From IMG/VR virus record IMGVR_UViG_3300047157_000003, positions 1 to 55,718 of that record: DNA of 55,718 nucleotides, one strand, 5' to 3'. Position numbers and translations under genes: made by a program. Source of the DNA: a virus. Below the pieces are notes generated by a model. The model was given only the letters and a program-made list of their open reading frames with translations, searched no databases and was not told the DNA's origin. Shown in pieces: positions 599-54,404 of this stretch (the first letter of the stretch is position 1; each line of letters starts with the position of its first letter).

Positions 599-660
599 GC
601 CCATAATAAACCAATAGTTCCCACACTGGAACAACTTTCCCAAGATCACAAATCACATCA

Positions 661-696
661 GGGGGGTTGGTTATATAACCCCCCCTATAAGGGGGG
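661..696. repeat. Alternating G-run/C-run inverted repeats
   Basis: GGGGGGTT, an AT-rich spacer, AACCCCCC, TATAA, then GGGGGG. The central C-run can pair with either the left or the right G-run, giving two mutually exclusive hairpins. It lies directly beside the TGACGYA repeat cluster and AT-rich DNA, an arrangement seen at replication origins and regulatory switches. Confidence 0.7.
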
Positions 697-857
697 TGAC
701 GCGGTTGACGTAAAATAACCCATTGATTTTAAACAATATTCTGCGTCAAAACGCAAAACTGACGCAACTGACGTAAACTACCTAAACCATTGAAAACAAA
801 CAAAACTCTGCGTCAACATCAACTGCGTCAGGTTTTGACGTAAAAAAAGTTGACGTA
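697..857. repeat. Cluster of nine TGACGYA repeats (candidate origin iterons)
   Basis: Copies of TGACGYR, usually as TTGACGTAAA or TGCGTCA, lie at 697-703, 705-714, 742-749, 760-766, 769-777, 809-816, 824-830, 835-844 and 850-857. Six read on the plus strand and three on the minus. They fill the gap between the leftward small terminase gene and the rightward early promoter and are separated by AT-rich stretches. Such arrays normally bind a replication initiator or repressor. No gene is visible in 539-960. Confidence 0.75.
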
Positions 858-3807: not shown

Positions 3808-4089
3808 ATGGAAAGACCAACTTTCAGATACATTCTTGACCGCTTAAATGGTATTAAAACGCAATCTGACTTAGAGGCATTGAAGTCCGATGTTGAGGGT
3901 TACTTGCCTTTAGATAAGTTCGAAGAGGACTTTGATGTTACCGCAGCGGTTGATAATTTGAAGCGTGACTATGTTAATAGAGCTTTAAATAAAGTCCCGA
4001 CATTACACGAAGCCGCAGACTTGCTCGGGTTAAAGAGCTATCAGGTTTTAGTAAATTGGATGAAACGACTGGATATTAAAAATGACTAA
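3808..4089 (+). CDS. Hypothetical protein with C-terminal helix-turn-helix-like segment, 93 residues
   Basis: The N-terminal two thirds is acidic and helical. The last 30 residues (TLHEAADLLGLKSYQVLVNW) read like a compact helix-turn-helix of the excisionase or merR-N kind. It starts 2 nt after the preceding stop and overlaps the following gene by 8 nt. DNA binding is a reasonable guess; no family is recognised. Confidence 0.6.
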   Translation: MERPTFRYILDRLNGIKTQSDLEALKSDVEGYLPLDKFEEDFDVTAAVDNLKRDYVNRALNKVPTLHEAADLLGLKSYQVLVNWMKRLDIKND

Positions 4090-4414
4090 CAGAGCAGAAA
4101 TTCTTGAAACAGCAAAACAATATGTGACCAAAGACAGAGCGTCTGATCATGGCGACATGGAAGATAACTTTGAAATGATCGCAGACTTTTGGTCGGTTTA
4201 TTTAGACATTAGAATTAAACCGCATGAAGTTGGAGTTATGATGACGCTATTAAAAGTAGCGCGGATTAGGTCAAATCCCGAACACCCCGACAATTGGGTC
4301 GATGGCGCAGGATATATGGCTTGTGGCGGTGAGATTGCGGGAAAGAGAAAGCGTACTACAATCCCGAAAATTGATGCCAACGGCAAGTTTGAAAAACATG
4401 AGGAAGCGTTATGA
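4082..4414 (+). CDS. DUF6378-family phage protein
   Basis: The protein matches the pattern I know as DUF6378: AKQYVTKDRASDHG near the N-terminus, DNFEMIADFWSVYL, then MMTLLKVARIRSNPEHPDNW and VDGAGYMACGGE. The conserved His/Asp/Glu positions suggest a helical nucleotide- or metal-binding protein, and relatives often lie near MazG-type or nucleotide-metabolism genes in phages, but no activity is established to my knowledge. At 110 residues it has the usual length. It overlaps both neighbours, in keeping with coupled translation. Confidence 0.8.
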   Translation: MTNRAEILETAKQYVTKDRASDHGDMEDNFEMIADFWSVYLDIRIKPHEVGVMMTLLKVARIRSNPEHPDNWVDGAGYMACGGEIAGKRKRTTIPKIDANGKFEKHEEAL

Positions 4415-6949: not shown

Positions 6950-6979
6950 ATTATTGCCATAATTTCCCACGATTGTCAA
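6950..6979 (-). promoter_or_regulatory. Promoter for the DUF3846 operon
   Basis: Minus strand: TTGACA (6979-6974, overlapping the primase stop codon), a 17-18 nt spacer containing GTGGGAAATTATGG, then CAATAAT (6956-6950). The spacer resembles the TGGGATTAT element found at other early promoters here. Confidence 0.5.
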
Positions 6980-9189
6980 ATGTTATCTCGACCTGTTTGA
7001 CGCTCATACTCACCTCTAGCGAGTGATCCATCCATAGCACCAAGCCACTTTTCTTCCCCACCTGTTGATAGTGCATACTTTCGTATCATTCCCATAGCGA
7101 GAGCTTCAGTAACGGCTTTTTTGATAGTTGTTTGACCGCCTGCGCCTTGCAAATAGACAACGCAAGGCTCAATAGCTTCCGACTCACGAATAGCATGGAA
7201 TATACCACTATTGACACCACCATGTGTAACAGCACGACCATCTAATTCTCTAATTCTAACAAACTCAACAATATGCGATAGTCTATCCCGAACAGATTGT
7301 GACATCGTTATAGATCGGACATCTTGTGACCTATCTTCGAGTAGGCCAGTGTTAGGATTACGGATAAAATGCCTAATATCTCTATTTGCAGGACCATTTG
7401 ACTTAACGACAGCTCCATCAAACACACCATTACGCGTATATTCTACATTAAGATCACGACAGCGTTGTTTTCCTGTACCTTCATCTACAGACCAGACCGC
7501 AAATGCAGACCGAACGCCATCAACAATAGCAGAAGTACCCCGAATAAGACTACGCGCTTGTTCTGGTGTTGTAACTGGATCGTTGTCTTTGATCTTTGCC
7601 ATATGGTGATTAACCATAACAGTAGCACCAGTTTCAGTAGCCATCTGTGCAAGTAAACTCATGAATGCAGCTCCTGCCGCCGGATCGGCGTTTACATCTG
7701 CGTGAACAAACGAGGCCATAGGGTCAATTACGATTAGCTTTAATGTTTCCATCTCTAGCATCTGATCATAAATCCGCGAGAACTCTTCGCCCATCAAATA
7801 TGTATTGTCGAACTTCTGCATGATAGGAAACACACCACCAAGGTTTGGCAATGGAAGCACACGCAACTTATGGCTGTAGACTTCTCTATGCCTTTGAGGG
7901 TCAAGGCGCGAAATACGTCTGTGCATTTCGTCTTTGTCATCTTCTGCTGTAATTAATATGACATCGCCGTGTTCTGCTACGAGGCCACCAAAAGCAGACT
8001 GCATAGATGTACCTGACGCAACCTTCATAGCCAAATCAAGTGTCATCATGCCCTTACCGCTATCTCCTGCCGCCGCAAATACACACGGAACTCCAAGAGG
8101 TATTGTATCACCAATAAGAAACTTTTGCTCAGGCACTGACCCGACAAAGTATTGGTCAACTAACAGGCTTTCATCAAGTAAGTTAATTGGTTTCTTTACA
8201 CTTCTCTCGTTCTTCTTGAGCATCTTCTCAATGTTAAAGTTTTCTTCCACGGCATCAGCGGCATCCCACTTTTCAGACTTAGTGGTAGGTATTTTAAGAA
8301 TTATTGTAGACTTTACGCCTGCTTCTTTAGCTTGAGCTTCAACAATAGAAGCAAGCTTCTTGCCTGCGGCGTCATTATCAGGCCACAATATCAGCTCTTT
8401 TCCTTTTAGCGGCGTGAAATCAAACTTATATGCTGTGTTTTCTGACAACATGCCAGCACCGCCAATTGTGCAAGTTGCTACATACCCAAGAGACGTAAGT
8501 GCATCAGCGCATTTCTCGCCTTCAACCCAAATAACTTTGTCTGAATCCAAAATGTTCGGGATATTGTATAAAGGTCTAGGTTCTGGAATGCCTTGGCGAC
8601 CTTCCATAAACTGACGAAACTGCTTTTTAGGCTTACCAGATGCGTCGAGTATCAGTTCACCTTGTGCGTTTTTCTCAAAATACTTACGAACTGATACAAT
8701 AACTATGCCATTTTCGTCGGTATAGTTGTATTCATCTTCAAAATCTGTGCTTGAGTTGATGCTCATGCTCTTTTGTTGCTGTGGAAATCCCTGCTGCGCA
8801 GTTGTAACTGCAAAGTTTGACGGATTGTTCGGCTTAACAATGTTTTCTGGCGGGGCAACATAGTCTGGGCTTATGTATTCCTTAAAGTATTCAACGCATT
8901 CAGCCAATGTATAGCCGCGACCTTCTTTGAATATCTTGCATATGCCCCCGACACCTTCACCTGATTCGAAATCTTTTCCGTTTAAGAACCAAGGACTTTG
9001 CATATCTATGTTGATAACCATAGACTTTCCTGCCTCACCACGAAGCGATCCAATATAAAACTCTTTGCCCCTTTGAACGCCTTCTGGGTATGTATCTATC
9101 AATGTTTGTAGCTGTACGCTACGAGGCACTTCTCTCGAAATACGCTCGGCTACATCTTTAGGTGACTTGCCAACGCTCAGTATATTCAT
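6976..9189 (-). CDS. Primase-helicase: TOPRIM domain plus RepA/DnaB-type AAA ATPase
   Basis: Bifunctional replication protein of 737 residues. A TOPRIM primase-like region carries VEGEKCADAL (about residue 222) and the acidic LWPDNDAAG (about 271). A RecA-fold helicase of the AAA_25/RepA type follows, with Walker A AAGDSGKG (about 380), the acidic Walker B LIVIDPMASFVHAD (about 495) and a VNHHMAK sensor. It probably unwinds the fork and primes or regulates priming. I take ATG 9189, which overlaps the nuclease stop as ATGA and has a GGGGAG site. No N-terminal zinc-binding domain is obvious. No DNA polymerase gene is seen nearby, so host polymerase is the likely partner. Confidence 0.85.
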   Translation of the reverse strand: MNILSVGKSPKDVAERISREVPRSVQLQTLIDTYPEGVQRGKEFYIGSLRGEAGKSMVINIDMQSPWFLNGKDFESGEGVGGICKIFKEGRGYTLAECVEYFKEYISPDYVAPPENIVKPNNPSNFAVTTAQQGFPQQQKSMSINSSTDFEDEYNYTDENGIVIVSVRKYFEKNAQGELILDASGKPKKQFRQFMEGRQGIPEPRPLYNIPNILDSDKVIWVEGEKCADALTSLGYVATCTIGGAGMLSENTAYKFDFTPLKGKELILWPDNDAAGKKLASIVEAQAKEAGVKSTIILKIPTTKSEKWDAADAVEENFNIEKMLKKNERSVKKPINLLDESLLVDQYFVGSVPEQKFLIGDTIPLGVPCVFAAAGDSGKGMMTLDLAMKVASGTSMQSAFGGLVAEHGDVILITAEDDKDEMHRRISRLDPQRHREVYSHKLRVLPLPNLGGVFPIMQKFDNTYLMGEEFSRIYDQMLEMETLKLIVIDPMASFVHADVNADPAAGAAFMSLLAQMATETGATVMVNHHMAKIKDNDPVTTPEQARSLIRGTSAIVDGVRSAFAVWSVDEGTGKQRCRDLNVEYTRNGVFDGAVVKSNGPANRDIRHFIRNPNTGLLEDRSQDVRSITMSQSVRDRLSHIVEFVRIRELDGRAVTHGGVNSGIFHAIRESEAIEPCVVYLQGAGGQTTIKKAVTEALAMGMIRKYALSTGGEEKWLGAMDGSLARGEYERQTGRDNI

Positions 9190-9974
9190 TGATCTGCTCC
9201 CCAACAAGTTTCCCTAAACTCACAAAACTTACAAAGAAAGAAATCTTTGGTGTGAGCAATACGAGGTAGAATGTCACCTGCTTTTGCCGCAGTCAAGATA
9301 TTCACTGCCTTGTCGCTTGCCTCTTGAGCCAACTTCTTATTGTAAGGTACAAGCTCATAGTATATTTCAGACGTGTTTTTATTAATAACAGTAAACAAAG
9401 CAGGATGCTCATAAAGCTCCATATAAGTCTGGTATAGTGCAAGTTGAGTAGCATACACTGGATTTGCCTTAGCTACACCATGACGAACAAACGCCTTAAA
9501 TTTATTATCATTTGCTGACTTACATTCCCAAAGAGCAGGGTAGCCCATTTCAACAGGACCATCACAAATTACGCCATCTATATGACCGCGAATCTCTCCA
9601 TCCGCTATAGAAAACCCAAACTGCTTTCCATCTTTGTGTTCTGTACGCAAATCAAATCCTGCATCTCGCAACCATTTTGACGCATATTCTTCTATCTCAT
9701 GACCGAACTGAAAGATACGCAAAGTTCTTGCGCTAAATGCTTTGTCCGCATCAATCGTGTAGTTTAAATAACGATATTGTATTTTACGCTGACATTCATC
9801 ACCAATGCTTGACGCACCGATATACTTGCGTCTCTCCCTTTTTTCTTCATTCGCAACAATCGCATCATCTACGACCTTAGTAATACTATCTGCTACAGGA
9901 TTTTCATTAGAATGGGATTGAAGTAGAAGGCCAAGCGCCTGTTGACTTATAGTAGATTTCTTCGAGTTTCCCAA
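9186..9974 (-). CDS. PD-(D/E)XK nuclease, Cas4/RecB-like, with probable Fe-S cluster
   Basis: This 262-residue protein has the PD-(D/E)XK core GHIDGVI followed by ALWECKSAN (about residues 131-153). One N-terminal Cys (IGDECQRK, about 56) and three C-terminal Cys (CKFCEFRETC, about 247-256) match the four-cysteine Fe-S arrangement of Cas4 and AddB-type nucleases. Family members resect DNA ends with 5'-to-3' polarity, which suits recombination or replication alongside the annealing ATPase at 12836. Its stop overlaps the primase start and its start overlaps the upstream gene by 68 nt. A CRISPR role is not suggested, as no array or other cas gene is present. Confidence 0.85.
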   Translation of the reverse strand: MGNSKKSTISQQALGLLLQSHSNENPVADSITKVVDDAIVANEEKRERRKYIGASSIGDECQRKIQYRYLNYTIDADKAFSARTLRIFQFGHEIEEYASKWLRDAGFDLRTEHKDGKQFGFSIADGEIRGHIDGVICDGPVEMGYPALWECKSANDNKFKAFVRHGVAKANPVYATQLALYQTYMELYEHPALFTVINKNTSEIYYELVPYNKKLAQEASDKAVNILTAAKAGDILPRIAHTKDFFLCKFCEFRETCWGADQ

Positions 9975-14976: not shown

Positions 14977-15207
14977 ATGCCAAACCCCGGAAAATATAAG
15001 TCCGTAGGTGTTTCTATTGAAGCATACGATAAACTGGTTATCATTGCTGAAAGCGAAGATCGCGCTATTGGGCGACAACTTGCGCGTATGATAGATGAAA
15101 CATTCGAACAAATTAATGCTCGTGTCAATACCAAGCGACAAGTGCCAAATAGTTTTGGAACAGTTGGTCTAGGTGGTCTGTCTTCAGTCTCCGTTATAGA
15201 AGACTAA
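14977..15207 (+). CDS. Ribbon-helix-helix DNA-binding protein (CopG/Arc type), 76 residues
   Basis: The N-terminal half has a CopG/Arc-like layout: KYKSVGVSIEAYDKLVIIAE (beta strand, then helix A) and AIGRQLARMIDETFEQIN (helix B). Dimers of this fold insert the strand into the DNA major groove and often repress their own or nearby promoters. GGAAGG upstream is a good ribosome site. It lies divergent to DUF1064 with an 18-nt gap and overlaps tail to tail with the gene at 15204 by 4 nt. It is a candidate for the factor binding the shared early-promoter element, but this is only inference. Confidence 0.7.
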   Translation: MPNPGKYKSVGVSIEAYDKLVIIAESEDRAIGRQLARMIDETFEQINARVNTKRQVPNSFGTVGLGGLSSVSVIED

Positions 15208-18200
15208 AGAAGATCAGCATTACCTAAGCCACCTAACAGAGTAGCTGCCGCCGCAGGGCTTTGTCTTGCGCGATCTCTAAGTTCTTGATTAACATTAGAA
15301 CGAAGAACATCAATTATTCCAGCAGGTCTTGAAGGCATTCTTCTTGGTGCAGCCTCTGGTATTGAAACTCTAGGCATATTAGGCTGACTTACTTCTGGAA
15401 TAGAAGTTAATCCTGTGCTTGGAGAAGCATCAGTTTCTTGCCTAAACAATGCGCGAGGTAATACATTTTTACTTGCTCTACCAAGTTGACCAGTTAAGGC
15501 AGCAGTTCCACGAGCCGCACCTCCTAATTTACCAGCCATAGAATTTACATTTATACCTTCGTCTAGCATTGCTTTATTTAAAATACTTGCCATTCCTTGG
15601 GCGCGTGCTTGAGGGTTATTAAGTGTAGCTCTTCTCATATCTATATAAAGTTTAACTGTTTCTGGCCTGCTAAATATTCCAGCAAATACTTTAAATTTAC
15701 CTAGTCTCCCCAATACATTAACTGGATGAGAAAATATTTGCGCCCACATACCACCTGCGGCTATGGAGCCTTCTTTGCTTACATCTCCAACAGTAGCTAA
15801 GTCATCTCCAAAATTCTTCATAGCTGTAAAAGTATCATCACCTAAAATTTGCTTTAAAGAACCAGCTTTGTATTTTTCTAAAGTTTGTTTTAAAGATTTT
15901 GCGTTTGCAGCGCTTTCAAATACATTGCTGTCAACAGAGCTTAAAACATCTTCTATAACTACGTTTTTCATATTTTGTTGCATTTGAGGGTTATTATCAA
16001 AAAACTTCATTATTTGACGAGTTTCACTTTCGGTCAATGAAGGTTTTGTTAAAGCCCTAACCACATCGTCATAACTTGCAGATTTGTTCGGGTTATTTAA
16101 ATCTTTAATTACGCTAGTTGTAAGAGCTTCAGCTTGTTCTTTATTTGCCTTAACAACATTTTCTAAAGAAATAATAAGGTCTTTTGAACCACCTGCGCTC
16201 ATCACTCTTTGAACATCATCAAGACTTAGCGTGTCTTTCATGCTAGTTTGAGACATAACTTTTGCAAGTTTTTTAACTTCGCCCCATTTTCCGCCAAACA
16301 ATTTAGGTCCAGTTGTTCCTAATTTCATAATGTTATTTGAAAATACTTTTCCATTAAAGGATTGAGGGTTTATTGAATCAAATTTAGAATCTGACAAAGC
16401 TCTATTTATATAGCTGCTTGATAATTCTTCCATAAGTTCTTTTGGATTATCTACAGCATTTAAGACAGCTTGCAATCTCTCAGGAGAATCTGGCCTTACA
16501 ACTTTAGTAAAAAATTGATCAGAAATTGCACGAGGGCTAGTGTCTCCAAAAGCTTTTAGGTCTTGTATAGATCGAATAACTCCAAGATTAGACAAGTCTT
16601 CAAAACGACTAATACCTTTTCTGTAGTCATCATTGGCTAATTTTCGTAATTTTGCAGCTTGACCTAATATATTTAAATCGTCTTCGCTTAAACGCCCAGT
16701 AAGATTGCTTAAAATGTCATCTTTATCTAGCATATTATCAAGAAGACCCTTTAGGCTATTTAATTGCCTTGTGCCTTGCGTACCAGCTCCAAACATTAAA
16801 CTGTCATTAACGTGCTTTCTAAGGGATACAAGGTTTCTAAAACTTGCCTTACCTCCTTGATCAGTTAATTCTTTTAATGAGTTGTATGCAAGACCTACAG
16901 AGCCTTCTAAAAGAGAAGTCCCGTGATCTTCAATCATATCATCAAATTTATTCATAAGGCCGCGAGTGTCAAAAAGCTTTAACTTACCGCCTTCTTTCAT
17001 TACTTGTTTTCCATTTATTTCTACTGGAACTTTAATTTGAGCTAAAGCATCATCAATAGCCCCATAACTTGATCTTGATACATCATCAAAAACATTAAAT
17101 GATTTAACTATACTGCCAAGAGTTTTAGCATTTAAATCAATACGATCATTAGAAGATTTAGCCAAAAGTTTAAAACCAGTGTCTATAGCTTTAAACGCTT
17201 CGTCGTTAGCTGATTTTACATTAGATTTTAATTTTGAAAATTGTTTTGGAGAGTACCATTTGACTGCTTTACCTAATTCTTCAGTAGGATCACCATTTAT
17301 CATTGACATAAAAGACTTTTTTTCTTCCAAAGCTACTGATAAATTTTTGTCCATTCTTGCAGTATTTTTAGTTGCATTTTCAGCAAATTTTTGTCCATAC
17401 GCTATAGGTCTTGGAGCGCCTAATGACTCCATAGATTGAACATAACCCTTACCATATAATCTTTCAGCTTGATTTAAAGTTGCTTCTGTAACTTCATCCA
17501 TTGCAGTTGCCGAACCGCCAACACGACCAGCTATATTTTTTCCTGCATTAATAGTGCCACGACCTATAGACGCAAGAACTGCTCCTGCAACTTCACCACC
17601 AGCACCAATAACACCTTCTATTGCTACATCTGTAGCCACTTCACCAAGACTTTGAGTTTGCACGCCAAGCAAAGCCTCAATAGCTTCTTCTACAGCTTGA
17701 CCCGCAGCCGCCCCTGCTCCAGCTCCAGCAATTGAACCAATGCCAAAAGTTAATCCACCTCCAGCAATAGCACCACCAATAGAGCCTATAGTTTCTGGAA
17801 GAATACCTGTTAAATCGGCAAGATCACGAAAGCTAAATCCTTCATCTTCAATAATAAGGTTTTTGCCAATTGGGTCTATACCACGAGCTTTTTGTCCTGC
17901 TTCAGTTAAAGCTAAACGACCAGATTGATCTCTTACATATCCATCTTCACCAACAATATTTTTTAATATTGCTTCACGATCACCATCAGTCTCTCCAAAT
18001 GACATTAATGCACGAAGCTTGCCATCAGCACCAGATGTATAGTCAAAAGACTCACGATCACGCCCAAGACTATCATCAACCATTTGACTTAAATCTTTAC
18101 CTGTATTTAAACTTGAAAAAGCTAACGAACCTATTAAGTCAGCTACTTTTTCATTAGGATCATTGTTTTTTATAGACTGTAAGGCATTGTACGCCTGTCT

Positions 18201-18260
18201 TTCTGAAAATGATCCAGATTTTATACCTTGAAGCAATGTAAATCTTGAACGCTCATCCAT
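15204..18260 (-). CDS. Large internal virion/ejection protein, 1018 residues
   Basis: The last gene of the leftward structural block is the usual place for the large DNA-ejection protein of podoviruses. After a helical N-terminus, residues about 125-225 are Gly/Ala-rich and hydrophobic (SIGGAIAGGGLTFGIGS and AGAGAGAAAGQAVEEA), which could insert into the membrane during DNA delivery. The rest is long, helical and charged, with no recognised lytic transglycosylase motif. Internal virion placement is inferred from gene order and composition, not from a family match. A pro/basic C-terminal tail follows (residues 920-1018). Confidence 0.65.
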   Translation of the reverse strand: MDERSRFTLLQGIKSGSFSERQAYNALQSIKNNDPNEKVADLIGSLAFSSLNTGKDLSQMVDDSLGRDRESFDYTSGADGKLRALMSFGETDGDREAILKNIVGEDGYVRDQSGRLALTEAGQKARGIDPIGKNLIIEDEGFSFRDLADLTGILPETIGSIGGAIAGGGLTFGIGSIAGAGAGAAAGQAVEEAIEALLGVQTQSLGEVATDVAIEGVIGAGGEVAGAVLASIGRGTINAGKNIAGRVGGSATAMDEVTEATLNQAERLYGKGYVQSMESLGAPRPIAYGQKFAENATKNTARMDKNLSVALEEKKSFMSMINGDPTEELGKAVKWYSPKQFSKLKSNVKSANDEAFKAIDTGFKLLAKSSNDRIDLNAKTLGSIVKSFNVFDDVSRSSYGAIDDALAQIKVPVEINGKQVMKEGGKLKLFDTRGLMNKFDDMIEDHGTSLLEGSVGLAYNSLKELTDQGGKASFRNLVSLRKHVNDSLMFGAGTQGTRQLNSLKGLLDNMLDKDDILSNLTGRLSEDDLNILGQAAKLRKLANDDYRKGISRFEDLSNLGVIRSIQDLKAFGDTSPRAISDQFFTKVVRPDSPERLQAVLNAVDNPKELMEELSSSYINRALSDSKFDSINPQSFNGKVFSNNIMKLGTTGPKLFGGKWGEVKKLAKVMSQTSMKDTLSLDDVQRVMSAGGSKDLIISLENVVKANKEQAEALTTSVIKDLNNPNKSASYDDVVRALTKPSLTESETRQIMKFFDNNPQMQQNMKNVVIEDVLSSVDSNVFESAANAKSLKQTLEKYKAGSLKQILGDDTFTAMKNFGDDLATVGDVSKEGSIAAGGMWAQIFSHPVNVLGRLGKFKVFAGIFSRPETVKLYIDMRRATLNNPQARAQGMASILNKAMLDEGINVNSMAGKLGGAARGTAALTGQLGRASKNVLPRALFRQETDASPSTGLTSIPEVSQPNMPRVSIPEAAPRRMPSRPAGIIDVLRSNVNQELRDRARQSPAAAATLLGGLGNADLL

Positions 18261-18274
18261 TTTTGTAACCTTTA

Positions 18275-20164
18275 TTAAAGTTTTACACCAAGAGAAATCA
18301 AGTCAGCTTCATACTCTTTTCTCTCATTTTCGTCTAATTCACCATCATTTAAAGCTGAACCTATTTTTCTTCCAGTATATCTATCTAAGGTAGCCAATCC
18401 TTGCCTAATATCTGCTTCAGCGCTTAAAACAATGTCATTAAACAGTTCTTCTACTTTTTTGCGAACAACTCTTATATCTCCAAAAGAATCAAGTGTTCCA
18501 ACAATTCTTTCTACGCGTTCACGATCACCATCAGAAATTGTTTTTCCAGATTCTCCAAGAATACTAGGAGCATTTTTCATAGCTAACTTTTCTAAAACCA
18601 TTTTTATTCTTGCTGTTTCTGGCATATTTTCACCAAATTTTATTCCAAAAGCCGCACCAAGAGAATTAAGTGAGTCCACTCCATAAGTAAAAACATTTCG
18701 ATTTTTGTCAGTTAAAATACCAAGTTCAATAAACTGTTCTTTAGCTTTTTGATTATCACGGGCCATTCTAGCTAAAGCTTCATAATGATTTTTACCATCG
18801 CCATCTAATATTGCCATGCCTCCCGGATTTTTGTTCGGGTCTGCGCTAAATGTTCTTATTGATAGTGTATCTCCAGCTCCTTCAAAAAGTGGAATTGTGT
18901 TAGGATTTTTAGTTAAATAAAGCTCAGATGCTTCAGGTGTTTTCATGGCTTCCGTTACAACAGAACTCCAAGTAGCACCGGGAAGAACATCAAATTTTTC
19001 AGAAAACTCTGGGTCTTTTCTAAGTTTATCTAACTCGTATTTGCTTAAAGATTCTAACTTACCTTTACCTTGAGATAAGTCTGCTAAAAATCCTTTTACA
19101 TCATTAGATTTAGGAACTACAAAATAATTTGCACGCTCCATCGCTTTTTCCTTAGCGGCAAGAGCTTTGGTTTCATCAGCGGCTTGAGCTTCAAGAGCGT
19201 ATTTGCCGCCCGCTATAGCATCTAAACGAGAACGTTCTCTAGCCTTTTCAAGAGCAGGCATCGCTGATTCACCGGCTTTACCAACTGATGTAAGCATTTT
19301 ACCTACATTAAACCCTTTGCCAGCTTTGTTTTGCATTAAGGCTAAACCAAAAGTCATAAGAGCGTGGCTTTTATCTACTTTTCCACTTATGTCTACACCA
19401 GTAGCTTCTGCAAACTTTTTCTTATAATCATCAATATCTTGAACTGGAGAAATTTCTGGTCCAGAGCCTCTAACTGCATTTATGTAATCATTCATAGCAG
19501 CCATAGAAGCTTCTTCAATTTGACTTTGACCAACTTCAATTTGATTACCTCTAAGACCATCATCTGGACCTGTTGATGTAAAGTCATCTGGAGATGAAAT
19601 AATATCTCTATAAAAAGGATTTTTCTTATCTTTTACTTCATTAGAAGTTTTTGGACTTTCAGCTTCAGCTAATGTTGCAGCTATTTGATCAAGTGCAGAT
19701 TCTTCAAAAGCCGTAGAATTGTTCGGCATTTCTTCTATACGATTAGCATCTTCTGTAAGTTCTTCTTGAGATTTTGAAGTTGCGTTTGGTTGAATTGCAG
19801 ACATTAAGTCTGAGTATGAGTTAGAAAATTCACTAAAGTCAGCAACATCAGGCTGTAAGCTTTGTATCTCTGAAGTAAATATTTCTTCAGGTCTTTTGTT
19901 TGCTCTGTCAACAAGTTGCTCAAAAGCACCTGATGGATTTTTAGTATTAATTCCTAAAGACTCAATGTAATCAATCGCTTCTTCACGATTTAAGCCAGAC
20001 AAAGGATCATCTGAAAATTCTTGTTCTACAGATTTAATTCCAGTAGAAGATGGACCTTCTTCAGCAAAAGGACTTCTTTGCTTTCCTATCATTGAGCGAA
20101 TTCCGCCCAATCCAAGTCCATAAGCTTTTAGAGGGTCTTGATATATTTGCCTTGGATCAGCCAT
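18275..20164 (-). CDS. Internal virion/ejection protein, 629 residues
   Basis: The start at 20164 (MADPRQIYQDP) has an AAAGG site; the longer frame to 20218 overlaps the upstream gene and lacks one. The protein is acidic and mostly helical, with a Lys/Ala-rich coiled stretch (KARERSRLDAIAGGKYALEA) near residues 320-360. It lies between two other large internal-protein candidates, in the position of a second ejection protein. No enzymatic motif is seen. Confidence 0.55.
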   Translation of the reverse strand: MADPRQIYQDPLKAYGLGLGGIRSMIGKQRSPFAEEGPSSTGIKSVEQEFSDDPLSGLNREEAIDYIESLGINTKNPSGAFEQLVDRANKRPEEIFTSEIQSLQPDVADFSEFSNSYSDLMSAIQPNATSKSQEELTEDANRIEEMPNNSTAFEESALDQIAATLAEAESPKTSNEVKDKKNPFYRDIISSPDDFTSTGPDDGLRGNQIEVGQSQIEEASMAAMNDYINAVRGSGPEISPVQDIDDYKKKFAEATGVDISGKVDKSHALMTFGLALMQNKAGKGFNVGKMLTSVGKAGESAMPALEKARERSRLDAIAGGKYALEAQAADETKALAAKEKAMERANYFVVPKSNDVKGFLADLSQGKGKLESLSKYELDKLRKDPEFSEKFDVLPGATWSSVVTEAMKTPEASELYLTKNPNTIPLFEGAGDTLSIRTFSADPNKNPGGMAILDGDGKNHYEALARMARDNQKAKEQFIELGILTDKNRNVFTYGVDSLNSLGAAFGIKFGENMPETARIKMVLEKLAMKNAPSILGESGKTISDGDRERVERIVGTLDSFGDIRVVRKKVEELFNDIVLSAEADIRQGLATLDRYTGRKIGSALNDGELDENERKEYEADLISLGVKL

Positions 20165-20177
20165 ATTATTTACCTTT

Positions 20178-21569
20178 TTATCTATTCGCACCTTGGTAGG
20201 TTGCATACATACCAACACCTTGTAGGAAAGGATTAGGAGCAGTCGAAGGACCTTGTGAGTATTGACTATACATTGACGCAGATGGAGCGCCAGTTAAATA
20301 GTTTTGAGCGTAACTATAAGGAGCTAAAGCCTGCTGTGTAGTCGCCAACTGATTTTGACGATAGAAGTCTTGAGCTTGCTGATCGTATTGTTGTTCTTTT
20401 CCGCCTACTTCGTACATAAACCCTAAGTCTTTAGGTGCCATTCCAGCATACACTTGACCAATATCAGCAGATGCTCCAGCTAATTGACCGTATGCTTTAC
20501 CTATGTCAGCTTGCGCACCGCCTAGTTGACCTGTAGATGCACCAAGGCCACCCATCAATCTACCAGTTTCTAAGTTGCGCTTGCGTTCATCTTCTGCTGC
20601 ACGAGCTTGCGCTTCTGCGCTAGATAAACCCATACTACGATACATATCAGCGGCTTTTAGCATTCTGCCTTCAGCGCCTTCGAATGATTTAGCTTCTGCT
20701 CCAAGCTGACTTGTAGATAAAGAACCAAGTTGTTGACCGCCAGCTATACCACGTTTTGCAGCATTTTCATAAGCGGCTTGCGCTCCAGCTAAAGACTTAT
20801 CATATCCTTGAGACATTACGTTAGCTATAGTTCCTTGCCTTGCTTCTTCAATGGCTCTTTCTGTCTCTGCGGCTTGAACACCAGATCGTGAACCACCAAA
20901 CGCGCCCTTACTTATAGCGTTCGCTGCATCAGCTTGACGCCTTTGTGCAGCTTGACGGTCTATTTTAGCTAAAGTTGTATCAAGAACTTGCTCTTTGTAT
21001 GGGTTCATAAATTTATCAACAGATGACGGATCAAACTGACCTAAACCACCTTTGATTGCACTGCGGGAATCTGCTAAAAGATCATTTGCACGCTGTTGAG
21101 CATCAAATAATTGTGTAGATTGATCAGCTCTTGCTTTTGCCTCTGCTGTCTCTGTGTCGTAAATTCCCTTTGCACCTATACCACCAGCGCCTTGACGTAA
21201 GTATGCTTGAGCTTCTGGAAAGTAATTAGCAAGTGAATCAGCTATAGTAGACGCGCCAGTTCCCAAGCCTTGGCTTGCTTGAGGTAAGTATCTTGCTATG
21301 CCACTTTCGTCAGTAAAGTAAGGCTGATAGCGATCCATAAATGCTTGACGTTGTTCTTCAGTTCCAAATGAATTAACTACGGATTCTTGTAGTGGGTTTC
21401 TTCCTGCTTGAACATAATCAGGAATATTAAACAGCTCAGGATCATCTATAATCCCACCTGTCAAAACGCCTTCATCATCAGGAGCGCCAAAAATACGCTG
21501 AAGCAACGCCTCATCGTATTCCTGCATATAAGCTGGCAATTGCCGTATGGTTGTTACACTATCAGCCAT
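20178..21569 (-). CDS. Internal virion/ejection protein, 463 residues, Ala/Gln-rich
   Basis: The protein is rich in Ala, Gln and Gly, with extended helices (NAISKGAFGGSRSGVQAAET and RAIEEARQGTIANVMSQGYD) like ejection proteins of related marine podoviruses. It starts by a TAATG overlap on the gene upstream. The C-terminal 60 residues are Tyr/Ser/Pro-rich and disordered. It probably forms part of the internal core released with the DNA. The role is from context and composition. Confidence 0.6.
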   Translation of the reverse strand: MADSVTTIRQLPAYMQEYDEALLQRIFGAPDDEGVLTGGIIDDPELFNIPDYVQAGRNPLQESVVNSFGTEEQRQAFMDRYQPYFTDESGIARYLPQASQGLGTGASTIADSLANYFPEAQAYLRQGAGGIGAKGIYDTETAEAKARADQSTQLFDAQQRANDLLADSRSAIKGGLGQFDPSSVDKFMNPYKEQVLDTTLAKIDRQAAQRRQADAANAISKGAFGGSRSGVQAAETERAIEEARQGTIANVMSQGYDKSLAGAQAAYENAAKRGIAGGQQLGSLSTSQLGAEAKSFEGAEGRMLKAADMYRSMGLSSAEAQARAAEDERKRNLETGRLMGGLGASTGQLGGAQADIGKAYGQLAGASADIGQVYAGMAPKDLGFMYEVGGKEQQYDQQAQDFYRQNQLATTQQALAPYSYAQNYLTGAPSASMYSQYSQGPSTAPNPFLQGVGMYATYQGANR

Positions 21570-51763: not shown

Positions 51764-52171
51764 CTAGCCACCTTTGTTCGGATAAACTCCGCGCCGTTGG
51801 CCTCTATGCGACCAAACTTTTTTAACCTCTGGAAACTCCAACTTAAACATTTGCCGAAGATCCCTACAAAAACTCAACACTCCAGAAGAGCCGTTGGGGG
51901 CAATCATATCAACAAAAACTAATTTGTCACCTGTTTCTCGACGAAAAATTTCTGGACCCCAATAATCTCTTGTCTCAAACTCCTCATCCGTCATCCAAGC
52001 CCACGTCACAAAGCCTGCACACGATCCACCCTCGTTATGCCAAATCTTATACTGACCACTCTCAATCGCAGGCGATAACCGCCACGCAATAGTGCTACTA
52101 GGAAAAGTCGAATACGGTAAACACGTTGTCCATAGATCAACGCAATCTATGAAATCTGCCTGCTTAGACAT
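51764..52171 (-). CDS. HlyC-like (RTX toxin-activating) lysine-acyltransferase homologue, 135 residues
   Basis: AIESGQYKIWHNEGGSCAGF then VTWAWMTDEEFETRDYWGPE and KLVFVDMIAPNGSSGVLSFC follow HlyC closely (QY, WA, FIDWIAPFG). HlyC acylates lysines of RTX toxins using H23 and D92. D88 here matches D92, but the place of H23 is taken by Tyr20 (LPYSTFP against SPLHRNWP), with the same spacing to the Asp (68 against 69). So the enzyme may lack the usual catalysis or use another residue. It starts 3 nt after the 910-residue gene and overlaps the Met/Pro-rich protein by 1 nt. Confidence 0.75.
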   Translation of the reverse strand: MSKQADFIDCVDLWTTCLPYSTFPSSTIAWRLSPAIESGQYKIWHNEGGSCAGFVTWAWMTDEEFETRDYWGPEIFRRETGDKLVFVDMIAPNGSSGVLSFCRDLRQMFKLEFPEVKKVWSHRGQRRGVYPNKGG

Positions 52172-53302: not shown

Positions 53303-54404
53303 TTAACCTAGCGCGCCTATTCTGTTTCTATCTGATAGCGTTGTTATTCTATTCTGCCACCATTCGAACAAATCGTCATCAACATTTGCCCATATGCTTT
53401 CAACGCCGCGGCGGTTTTCTGGAAGCAATTGCGCGCCGCTTCCTTCAGTCTCAAAACTGAATAAAACCGTGTAACTGGTGTGGTGAGTTCCATCACCATA
53501 ACGCGCACCATTCGCTTGTTGCGTGCTAGTGACAACCGCCGCATCGCCAACGCGCGTTCTTATTTCAGAGACGCGGCGTCTCACATCGCCTTCAGTACAT
53601 CCCGTTGCGTCCATAATTTCCAATGTGGACGCGCCGCCATCGGTGCGCATTAGATCATAAGTAATTCCAATTCGCGCGCCGCGTCTAAATGGTTGCTCTG
53701 GCGTATCAGTAACAATTGTTCGGTTGCCGCTTTCAATTCTGTTTTCAACAGTATGCAAAACAAGATTGTTTAAAAACTTAACCCAGTTAATAATCTTGGC
53801 CGCTTCAATTGTACCGCTTGCCTGTCTGAATTCAATTGTACCGCGTGACCATGTTTGTAAGTTGATTGATGTAAACTTGCCAAACGTTAATTCGCTAATA
53901 GTCGAAGCTTGTTCAATGCGGCGCGTACTTAATGGTGAGCAATAACGATTATCAGTACGTGAACGAGGGAACATAGAATTGACCGCGTCTTGTTGTCTTG
54001 TATAGCGTTTCATAATATCTTGAACCGCTATAAAATCCATTGGTTCTGAATGGTTTGCAAAAAAGCGGCCAGTTCGTTCTTTAACATCAATACTTTCACC
54101 ACAAAATTGAGTTGCGGTTGTATCGCTATTAAGCGGCGCGTTGCCAATGTGAACGTGCAAACCGCATGATGAATTTACACTTGCGCCAACTTCGTCCAAT
54201 ACACGGCAAATCTTTCTTAATATAATCCCATGCAAAATCACATGGTGCCAATGGTGGCAAAACTATTTCTGCGTCAACTCTTGGTGTTCCATCTGGCTTT
54301 ATTTCGCAACCGCGAATTCCTTCACGGATAAATGCTTGCTTAATACGGCCTATACTTGCGCCGCATGTTTCTATTTCTATTCCATCTGTTGGTATGTAAG
54401 TCAT
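53303..54404 (-). CDS. Amidoligase-family enzyme (GCS-like), frameshifted
   Basis: TDGIEIETCGASIGRIKQAF, SSCGLHVHIGNAPLNSDTTA, YCSPLSTRRIE and LQTWSRGTIEFRQASGTIEA followed by AKIINWVKFLNNLVLH match Amidoligase_2 (PF12224), a relative of glutamine synthetase and gamma-glutamylcysteine ligase that forms amide bonds with ATP. Frames meet near 54215 (AWDYIKK then ICRVLDEVGA) if one base is extra. The merged protein has about 367 residues, with about 120 residues after the catalytic domain. It may modify a host or phage peptide. The last 7 bp overlap a CGCTAGG palindrome. Confidence 0.8.

Follow-up and report, generated by a model that had tools for sequence, protein, structure and literature searches.

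The region at about positions 654-880 of the window, by which we mean the whole analysed stretch of 55,718 bp (an IMG/VR virus record with no exact end repeats), is very probably a replication origin, the iterons of which would be read by the C-terminal winged helix of the primase-helicase encoded by the phage. This assignment is drawn from sequence comparison of related phages, in which the spelling of the repeats co-varies with that domain, and it supports the claim of the preliminary description that the iterons bind a replication initiator. Fused initiators and C-terminal reading of iterons are known elsewhere, and for that reason the region is read as an origin.

A motif scan of the window rendered nine exact matches to TGACGYR at 697-857, in the order ++, -, ++, --, ++: TGACGCG at 697-703 (+), TGACGTA at 706-712 (+), TGACGCA at 742-748 (-) and 760-766 (+), TGACGTA at 769-775 (+), TGACGCA at 809-815 (-) and 824-830 (-), and TGACGTA at 836-842 (+) and 851-857 (+). 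A tenth, degenerate copy, TGATGTG, is inverted and located upstream of the first G run, at 654-660 (-). In 54 of 106 distinct origin regions from the relatives described below, an inverted word of the region's own class, with at most one mismatch, was found at most 18 bp upstream of the G run, whereas words taken from other classes gave such a match in 42 of 972 tries; the copy in the window itself matches less well. TGACGYR occurs 33 times in the whole window, a number reached in none of 100 shuffles (mean 17.7, largest 27), and nine of these occurrences fall within 161 bp, against at most two per 161 bp anywhere else in the window, so that the Poisson probability of the cluster at the background rate is ca. 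1e-16. The longer form TTGACGYAAA is present in the 55.7 kb only at 705 and 835. As in iteron-type origins, the short repeats lie beside an AT-rich stretch: the AT-rich DNA claimed for the region holds over the iterons (G+C of 0.32-0.39 in 100-base windows over 700-899, and 0.43-0.46 over the hairpins), but it is mild, the surroundings being at ca. 0.41. Analysis of inverted and direct repeats revealed an AT-rich spacer element between iterons, CATTGATTTTAAACAAT (721-737, +), as a candidate melting site, with a related copy near 788 and an inverted copy at 862-878.

The iterons adjoin a G6-C7-G6 triad from which either of two hairpins can form, the C run being common to both, so that they are mutually exclusive. 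In fold predictions hairpin 1 (661-684, arms GGGGGGTT and AACCCCCC) pairs 661-668 with 677-684 through 8 pairs, at -8.5 kcal/mol as DNA, and hairpin 2, made of part of the C run and the second G run, spans about 678-697, at -7.6 kcal/mol. These energies alone are unremarkable in comparison to shuffles (z from -0.9 to -1.8). On the other hand, the bases that would extend the stem of hairpin 1 co-vary: two such positions are paired in 40 and 31 of 46 distinct triads, the maxima among 2000 shuffles, in which relatedness was ignored, being 36 and 28, and the pairs include both T-A and A-T types. Pairing at positions three and four was no higher than in shuffles of the same 46 triads, and for hairpin 2 the variation across triads is uninformative. 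In the clade of L028 the hairpin sequence is quite different, yet two overlapping hairpins persist, so that a predicted structure with two alternative stems is conserved. L028, L029 and L030 carry ca. 280 bp of extra DNA between terS and the hairpins, with both overlapping stems kept. A minus-strand intrinsic terminator predicted at hairpin 1 was rejected, no T-run being found there in the relatives.

The left neighbour of the region is terS, encoding the terminase small subunit (17-538, -; profile matches to PHROG 51 and Pfam Terminase_2), and the right neighbour is the first early gene (961-1281, +), which matches phrog_3199 and has no known function. The nine repeats in both orientations, the two alternative hairpins and the oppositely transcribed flanks had all been pointed out in the preliminary description, and all are confirmed here. 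A candidate early promoter, TTGACC-17-TATATA (903-931, +), was recognized by eye, as were similar hexamers at the same place in relatives; it was not returned by a consensus promoter scan. The GC skew of the window tracks gene direction and is therefore uninformative with regard to the origin. Elsewhere in the window, ORFs at 51764-52171 (-) and 53303-54241 (-) match Pfam HlyC (RTX acyltransferase family) and Amidoligase_2, respectively, and two proteins of 1018 and 647 aa (15204-18260 and 18275-20218, both -), which diverge fast between relatives, rendered no Pfam or PHROG match.

A scan of IMG/VR with TerS yielded a first set of 80 loci with TerS proteins 83-100% identical to that of the window, and in nearly all of those with enough sequence the triad was found at an about constant distance from terS. 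Most of these loci carry 6-11 TGACGYR words at fixed positions, whereas 18 have the triad and at most one such word. Nine of the latter were read first, followed by all with at least 300 nt, and in them the words have not been lost but respelled together, as TCATGTA, TGGAGTA, TCCGGTA, TACCGTA or TGGCGTA. The set grew to 206 loci with 106 distinct origin regions when the primase-helicase and the hairpin pattern were used as further queries, and 12 word labels could be ascribed to these regions: TGACGTA (61 regions), TACCGTA (14), TACAGTA with a mixed third letter, TAACGTA, TCATGTA and TGGAGTA (5 each), TCCGGTA (4), TTGCGTA and TGAAGTA (2 each), and TTGGGTA, TCCAGTA and TGGTGTA, the last also as TGGCGTA (1 each). 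The automatic search was limited to words of the form TxyzGTA, and the common GTA end is therefore partly a product of construction, the first looks at loci having been unrestricted. Counted from the second G run, the repeats occupy slots 1+, 10+, 46-, 64+, 73+, ~113-, ~119-, ~128-, ~140+ and ~155+, which are largely kept, with their orientations, in examples of all 12 words, single slots being missing or degenerate in several. One further locus, L401 (TATAGTA), was dropped as a spurious triad. Neither the DNA region nor TerS has a relative in 50,697 phage records, and a literature search, mostly without subscription journals, brought up nothing on these phages or on a phage primase-helicase whose changes are accompanied by changes of the iteron word. 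The only match in cellular genome contigs, L456, belongs to a Rhodobacteraceae MAG, which could point to the host or result from faulty binning.

Between phages the word changes at most slots together, and therefore the protein that reads it should change too. To find it, 25 ORFs of the window were compared with 15 longer loci, after which the primase-helicase was aligned. TerS was rejected as the reader of the repeats, its DNA-binding region being nearly identical across word classes, as was gene 961, homologues of which are present in phages with several word classes. The binders previously proposed (the products of 961, 2273 and 14977) are thus probably wrong, and it is the primase-helicase (6976-9207, -) that co-varies instead. 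Its residues are numbered here from a TTG-initiated ORF, the relatives starting at the methionine that is residue 7 in this numbering. In phages with the words CAT, GGA and ACC (given as the three variable letters), 30-residue bins within residues 361-630 are 60-97% identical, and the C-terminus (631-720) only 17-47%, as compared with 37-67% between separate GAC phages; the last ca. 110 residues are those that diverge between word classes.

Individual residues were then compared in a MAFFT alignment of 46 rows, which collapse to 40 when sister loci from the same record are merged. Among the 516 columns that vary, that of residue 696, in the recognition helix (codon at 7120-7122, -), alone separates the word groups completely, with K in 36/36 rows with GAC, AAC, ACC or ACN and N, G, L, I, E or V in 10/10 rows with GAA, GGA, GG[CT], CAT or CCA, counts that are inflated by the relatedness of the rows, which are not independent. 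The division into words with C or N before GTA and all others was made once the first 54 loci had been read, and TGG[CT]GTA (L142) was placed in the second group by choice; the perfect split breaks if it is placed with the C words. The next best column, 700, lies in the same helix (balanced accuracy 0.81). No disjoint column was present in terS (107 variable columns), g1796 (85), g3772 (86), g6700 (62) or the nuclease at 9186 (155), and the best balanced accuracies in the five control proteins were 0.63-0.78. For helicase 10446, gene 10140 and gene 4082 there were too few non-C examples, only one in the case of gene 4082, which could be a second co-varying gene: its product is 36% identical in a CAT-word phage, versus 53-77% in most GAC-word phages. 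In the window this gene (4082-4414, +; 110 aa) forms part of the early operon, and relatives carry it next to the helicase (L141:9784-10062). A cruder column test based on pairwise tblastn, which rendered no disjoint column, was replaced by the MAFFT alignment; we attribute its result to misaligned C-termini. A first ranking by mutual information was noisy, with K696 in fifth place behind columns that were poorly aligned or marked lineages. Locus L222, labelled ACC by hand and part of this ranking, was rejected and excluded from the column test, the Mantel tests and the tree, its supposed repeats being a coding glycine-rich stretch.

In a FastTree of the core (40 rows) the words change 14 times, and the K/non-K state and the word group change seven times each, with the same partition. 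Both TGAAGTA phages (L175 and L265) have N at 696 and otherwise different cores, and L150 (GAC) and L265 (GAA) are 96.5% identical in core segment 390-620 versus 42% in the recognition helix. A partial Mantel test of word against recognition helix given the core rendered 0.38 (0/2000 permutations); the correlation was weak over the whole C-terminus (0.12, 130/2000), and that for the linker at 605-640 was also positive (0.30, 5/2000). Two predictions made in advance, that L482 (TCCAGTA) would not have K and that L479/L480 (TGACGTA) would, were both right, and represent two independent cases, one of them of the common class. The domain accounts poorly for the first letter of the word, as L170 (AAC) and L172 (GAC) have nearly the same helix. 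In the clade of L327, L352 and L081, the word is TACNGTA, the last of its three variable letters differing within the clade as though it went unread there, even though L327 has K696. The co-variation, as judged from sequence, thus points to a replicon-encoded candidate initiator matched to its repeats.

It had been reasoned that loss of the repeats in phages that keep the replication genes would speak against an origin, and this was not what we found: an origin was detected for 20 of the 22 distinct primase-helicases that have 8.5 kb or more of sequence downstream. One of the two misses, L153, has the repeats together with a divergent hairpin, as could be seen in the sister loci L028-L030. The other, L473 of record G072, is a real exception and counts against the origin reading, since it has K at 696 and no such origin was found upstream of its TerS or elsewhere in the record. 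This record (L483, L484) encodes a similar primase-helicase and a longer, different TerS.

The location of the region raises the question of packaging. It is very unlikely that TerS, encoded next to the region, recognizes the G/C hairpins as a cos or pac site and the repeats as auxiliary sites, because TerS remains constant while the word changes and the match of repeats to TerS that this would entail was not observed. That the hairpins alone are a packaging site is less improbable, although we still consider it unlikely: in most loci they are found upstream of terS at a distance of ca. 111-190 nt, they and the DNA-binding region of TerS are kept in all word classes, and origin and terS are neighbours in 201 of the 207 loci with a called origin. 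In the L028 clade, however, TerS is 91% identical and the hairpins have a different sequence ca. 280 bp further away, as would be expected if the signal lay in structure and not in sequence. Since the hairpins are constant across words, they probably have a reader other than that of the iterons; TerS, a host factor or a different region of the primase-helicase could be that reader.

The primase-helicase carries a Toprim_2 match at residues 244-309 (23.0 bits, the Pfam cut-off being 22.1), an AAA_25 match at 344-538 and a C-terminal domain (residues 619-743; 6979-7353, -) predicted to be a winged helix. AlphaFold2 run on an alignment of 82 C-termini gave a pLDDT of 82.5, with predicted helices at 19-37, 51-57, 63-70 and 74-86 and strands at 90-93 and 103-106 of the 125-residue segment, a layout which in this model is that of a winged helix; numbered within the segment, K696 is residue 78 and belongs to the initial turns of the last helix. 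Foldseek returned weak matches (E-value of 0.34 at best), many winged-helix proteins among them, and the best VIA-align match (Z of 7.7, 78 aligned residues, rmsd of 3.0), to a DNA-bound winged helix, has a Z that is common. The solved origin-binding domain of P4 was not among the Foldseek and VIA-align matches listed, which excludes nothing, and a sequence search of the PDB with the domain gave chance-level matches only. No relative of the domain was found in plasmids, and in the loci examined copies of it were confined to primases, so that an Odn-like nuclease was not observed. The nearest named relatives of the whole protein are the primase-helicases of Wolbachia phage WO, ca. 37-44% identical over most of the chain, one of which is annotated as similar to RepA of plasmid RSF1010.

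We infer from these data origin activity with the following steps of binding, melting and helicase loading. Several copies of the iteron would be bound by the C-terminal winged helix of the Toprim primase-RepA-like helicase, and through the bound copies the helicase would reach the AT-rich spacers that separate the iterons; the primase-helicase would melt these spacers, load the helicase and prime. The exclusive G/C hairpins would be a conserved structural part of the origin, which in single-stranded form may serve as signals for priming or loading. It could also be the case that the repeats are a cluster of operators through which the C-terminus of the primase-helicase, or another protein, controls the early promoter and the terS side, replication starting elsewhere. 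The promoter-like sequence recognized by eye after the last iteron and the divergent genes at both sides would be in keeping with it, and the co-variation with a DNA-binding domain fits equally, as gene control alone through repeat binding would produce it to the same extent. We regard such exclusive control as improbable, since the domain that co-varies is that of a replicative primase-helicase, the window holds only one such cluster, and the first early gene differs freely among phages with a common word. Initiators often repress their own origin region too, and therefore both functions may hold. Clusters of short repeats in both orientations can also be partition sites, and a centromere-like site of a plasmid-like prophage, with a ParB-like reader, was considered on that general ground; its likelihood is minimal, as the co-varying protein is the primase-helicase and not a ParB, and no partition gene was present among the 27 window proteins scanned, a part of its ORFs.

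Returning to the origin reading, an uncultured marine phage group gains in this way a defined candidate origin and initiator. One tentative interpretation, which we hold as a possibility rather than as the expected outcome, is that these phages form a large natural set of mutually private origin-initiator pairs, in which about ten iterons are respelled with the recognition helix, residue 696 is a main determinant of the letter before GTA and rivals drive the change; such rivals would be satellites, co-infecting relatives or origin-directed nucleases, as in the case of PLE and Odn. Should parasites or competitors drive the switches, the recognition of origins would be one front of phage conflict. 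Moreover, with at least 12 words, several near-isogenic pairs and about ten sites per switch, the group offers a test bed for specificity switching of origin readers, and a repeat word that changes with the terminal domain of a replication protein offers a route to finding origins in unannotated viral contigs.

Several known systems resemble the one described here. The helicase of the P4 alpha protein is of SF3/D5-type, whereas here it is AAA_25/RepA-like, without a Pfam D5-type match in the primase-helicase. According to PMC4234260, alpha unites Toprim primase, helicase and a repeat-binding winged helix in one protein, an arrangement like that of the chain studied here, in which the winged helix is predicted and would bind the repeats. 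The origin here, unlike that of P4, adjoins terS at ca. 6 kb from the gene of the candidate initiator, the phage has 55 kb or more, and the word varies widely between relatives. As no D5-type family is present, we describe the system as one that would work like P4 alpha, and do not file it as P4 alpha-type. SaPI Rep and Cch2 are described as helicases whose C-terminal domain reads iterons (PMC7581432), and in PICI origins two iteron sets are said to flank an AT-rich candidate melting site (PMC6092414). A candidate initiator helicase with C-terminal iteron reading and an AT-rich candidate melting site would be common to these and to our phages; in contrast, PICI origins are located just 3' of rep, the helicase is of another family, and their carriers are satellites and not whole phages. 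Iterons and a primase are shared with oriV of RSF1010 (IncQ), as would be a RepA-like helicase, a candidate feature of our phages (from the AAA_25 match and the WO annotation). RSF1010 also has single-strand initiation hairpins (ssi). RepA, RepB' and RepC of this plasmid are three separate proteins (PMC4234260), whereas primase, helicase and candidate reader are here one chain, with no separate RepC or RepB'. Finally, in the PLE satellites of Vibrio cholerae the origin and the RepA_N domain are reported to co-vary and to have been swapped, cognate pairs being specific (PMC8263062), the swaps probably having taken place under origin-nuclease attack (PMC8263062, PMC7145576). The co-variation of the origin with the DNA-binding domain of the candidate initiator is alike in both, the reader being N-terminal in a stand-alone initiator in PLE and C-terminal in a primase-helicase, with about twelve words, here. 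By analogy, it is possible that attack by an origin nuclease is also the cause of word switching in these phages.
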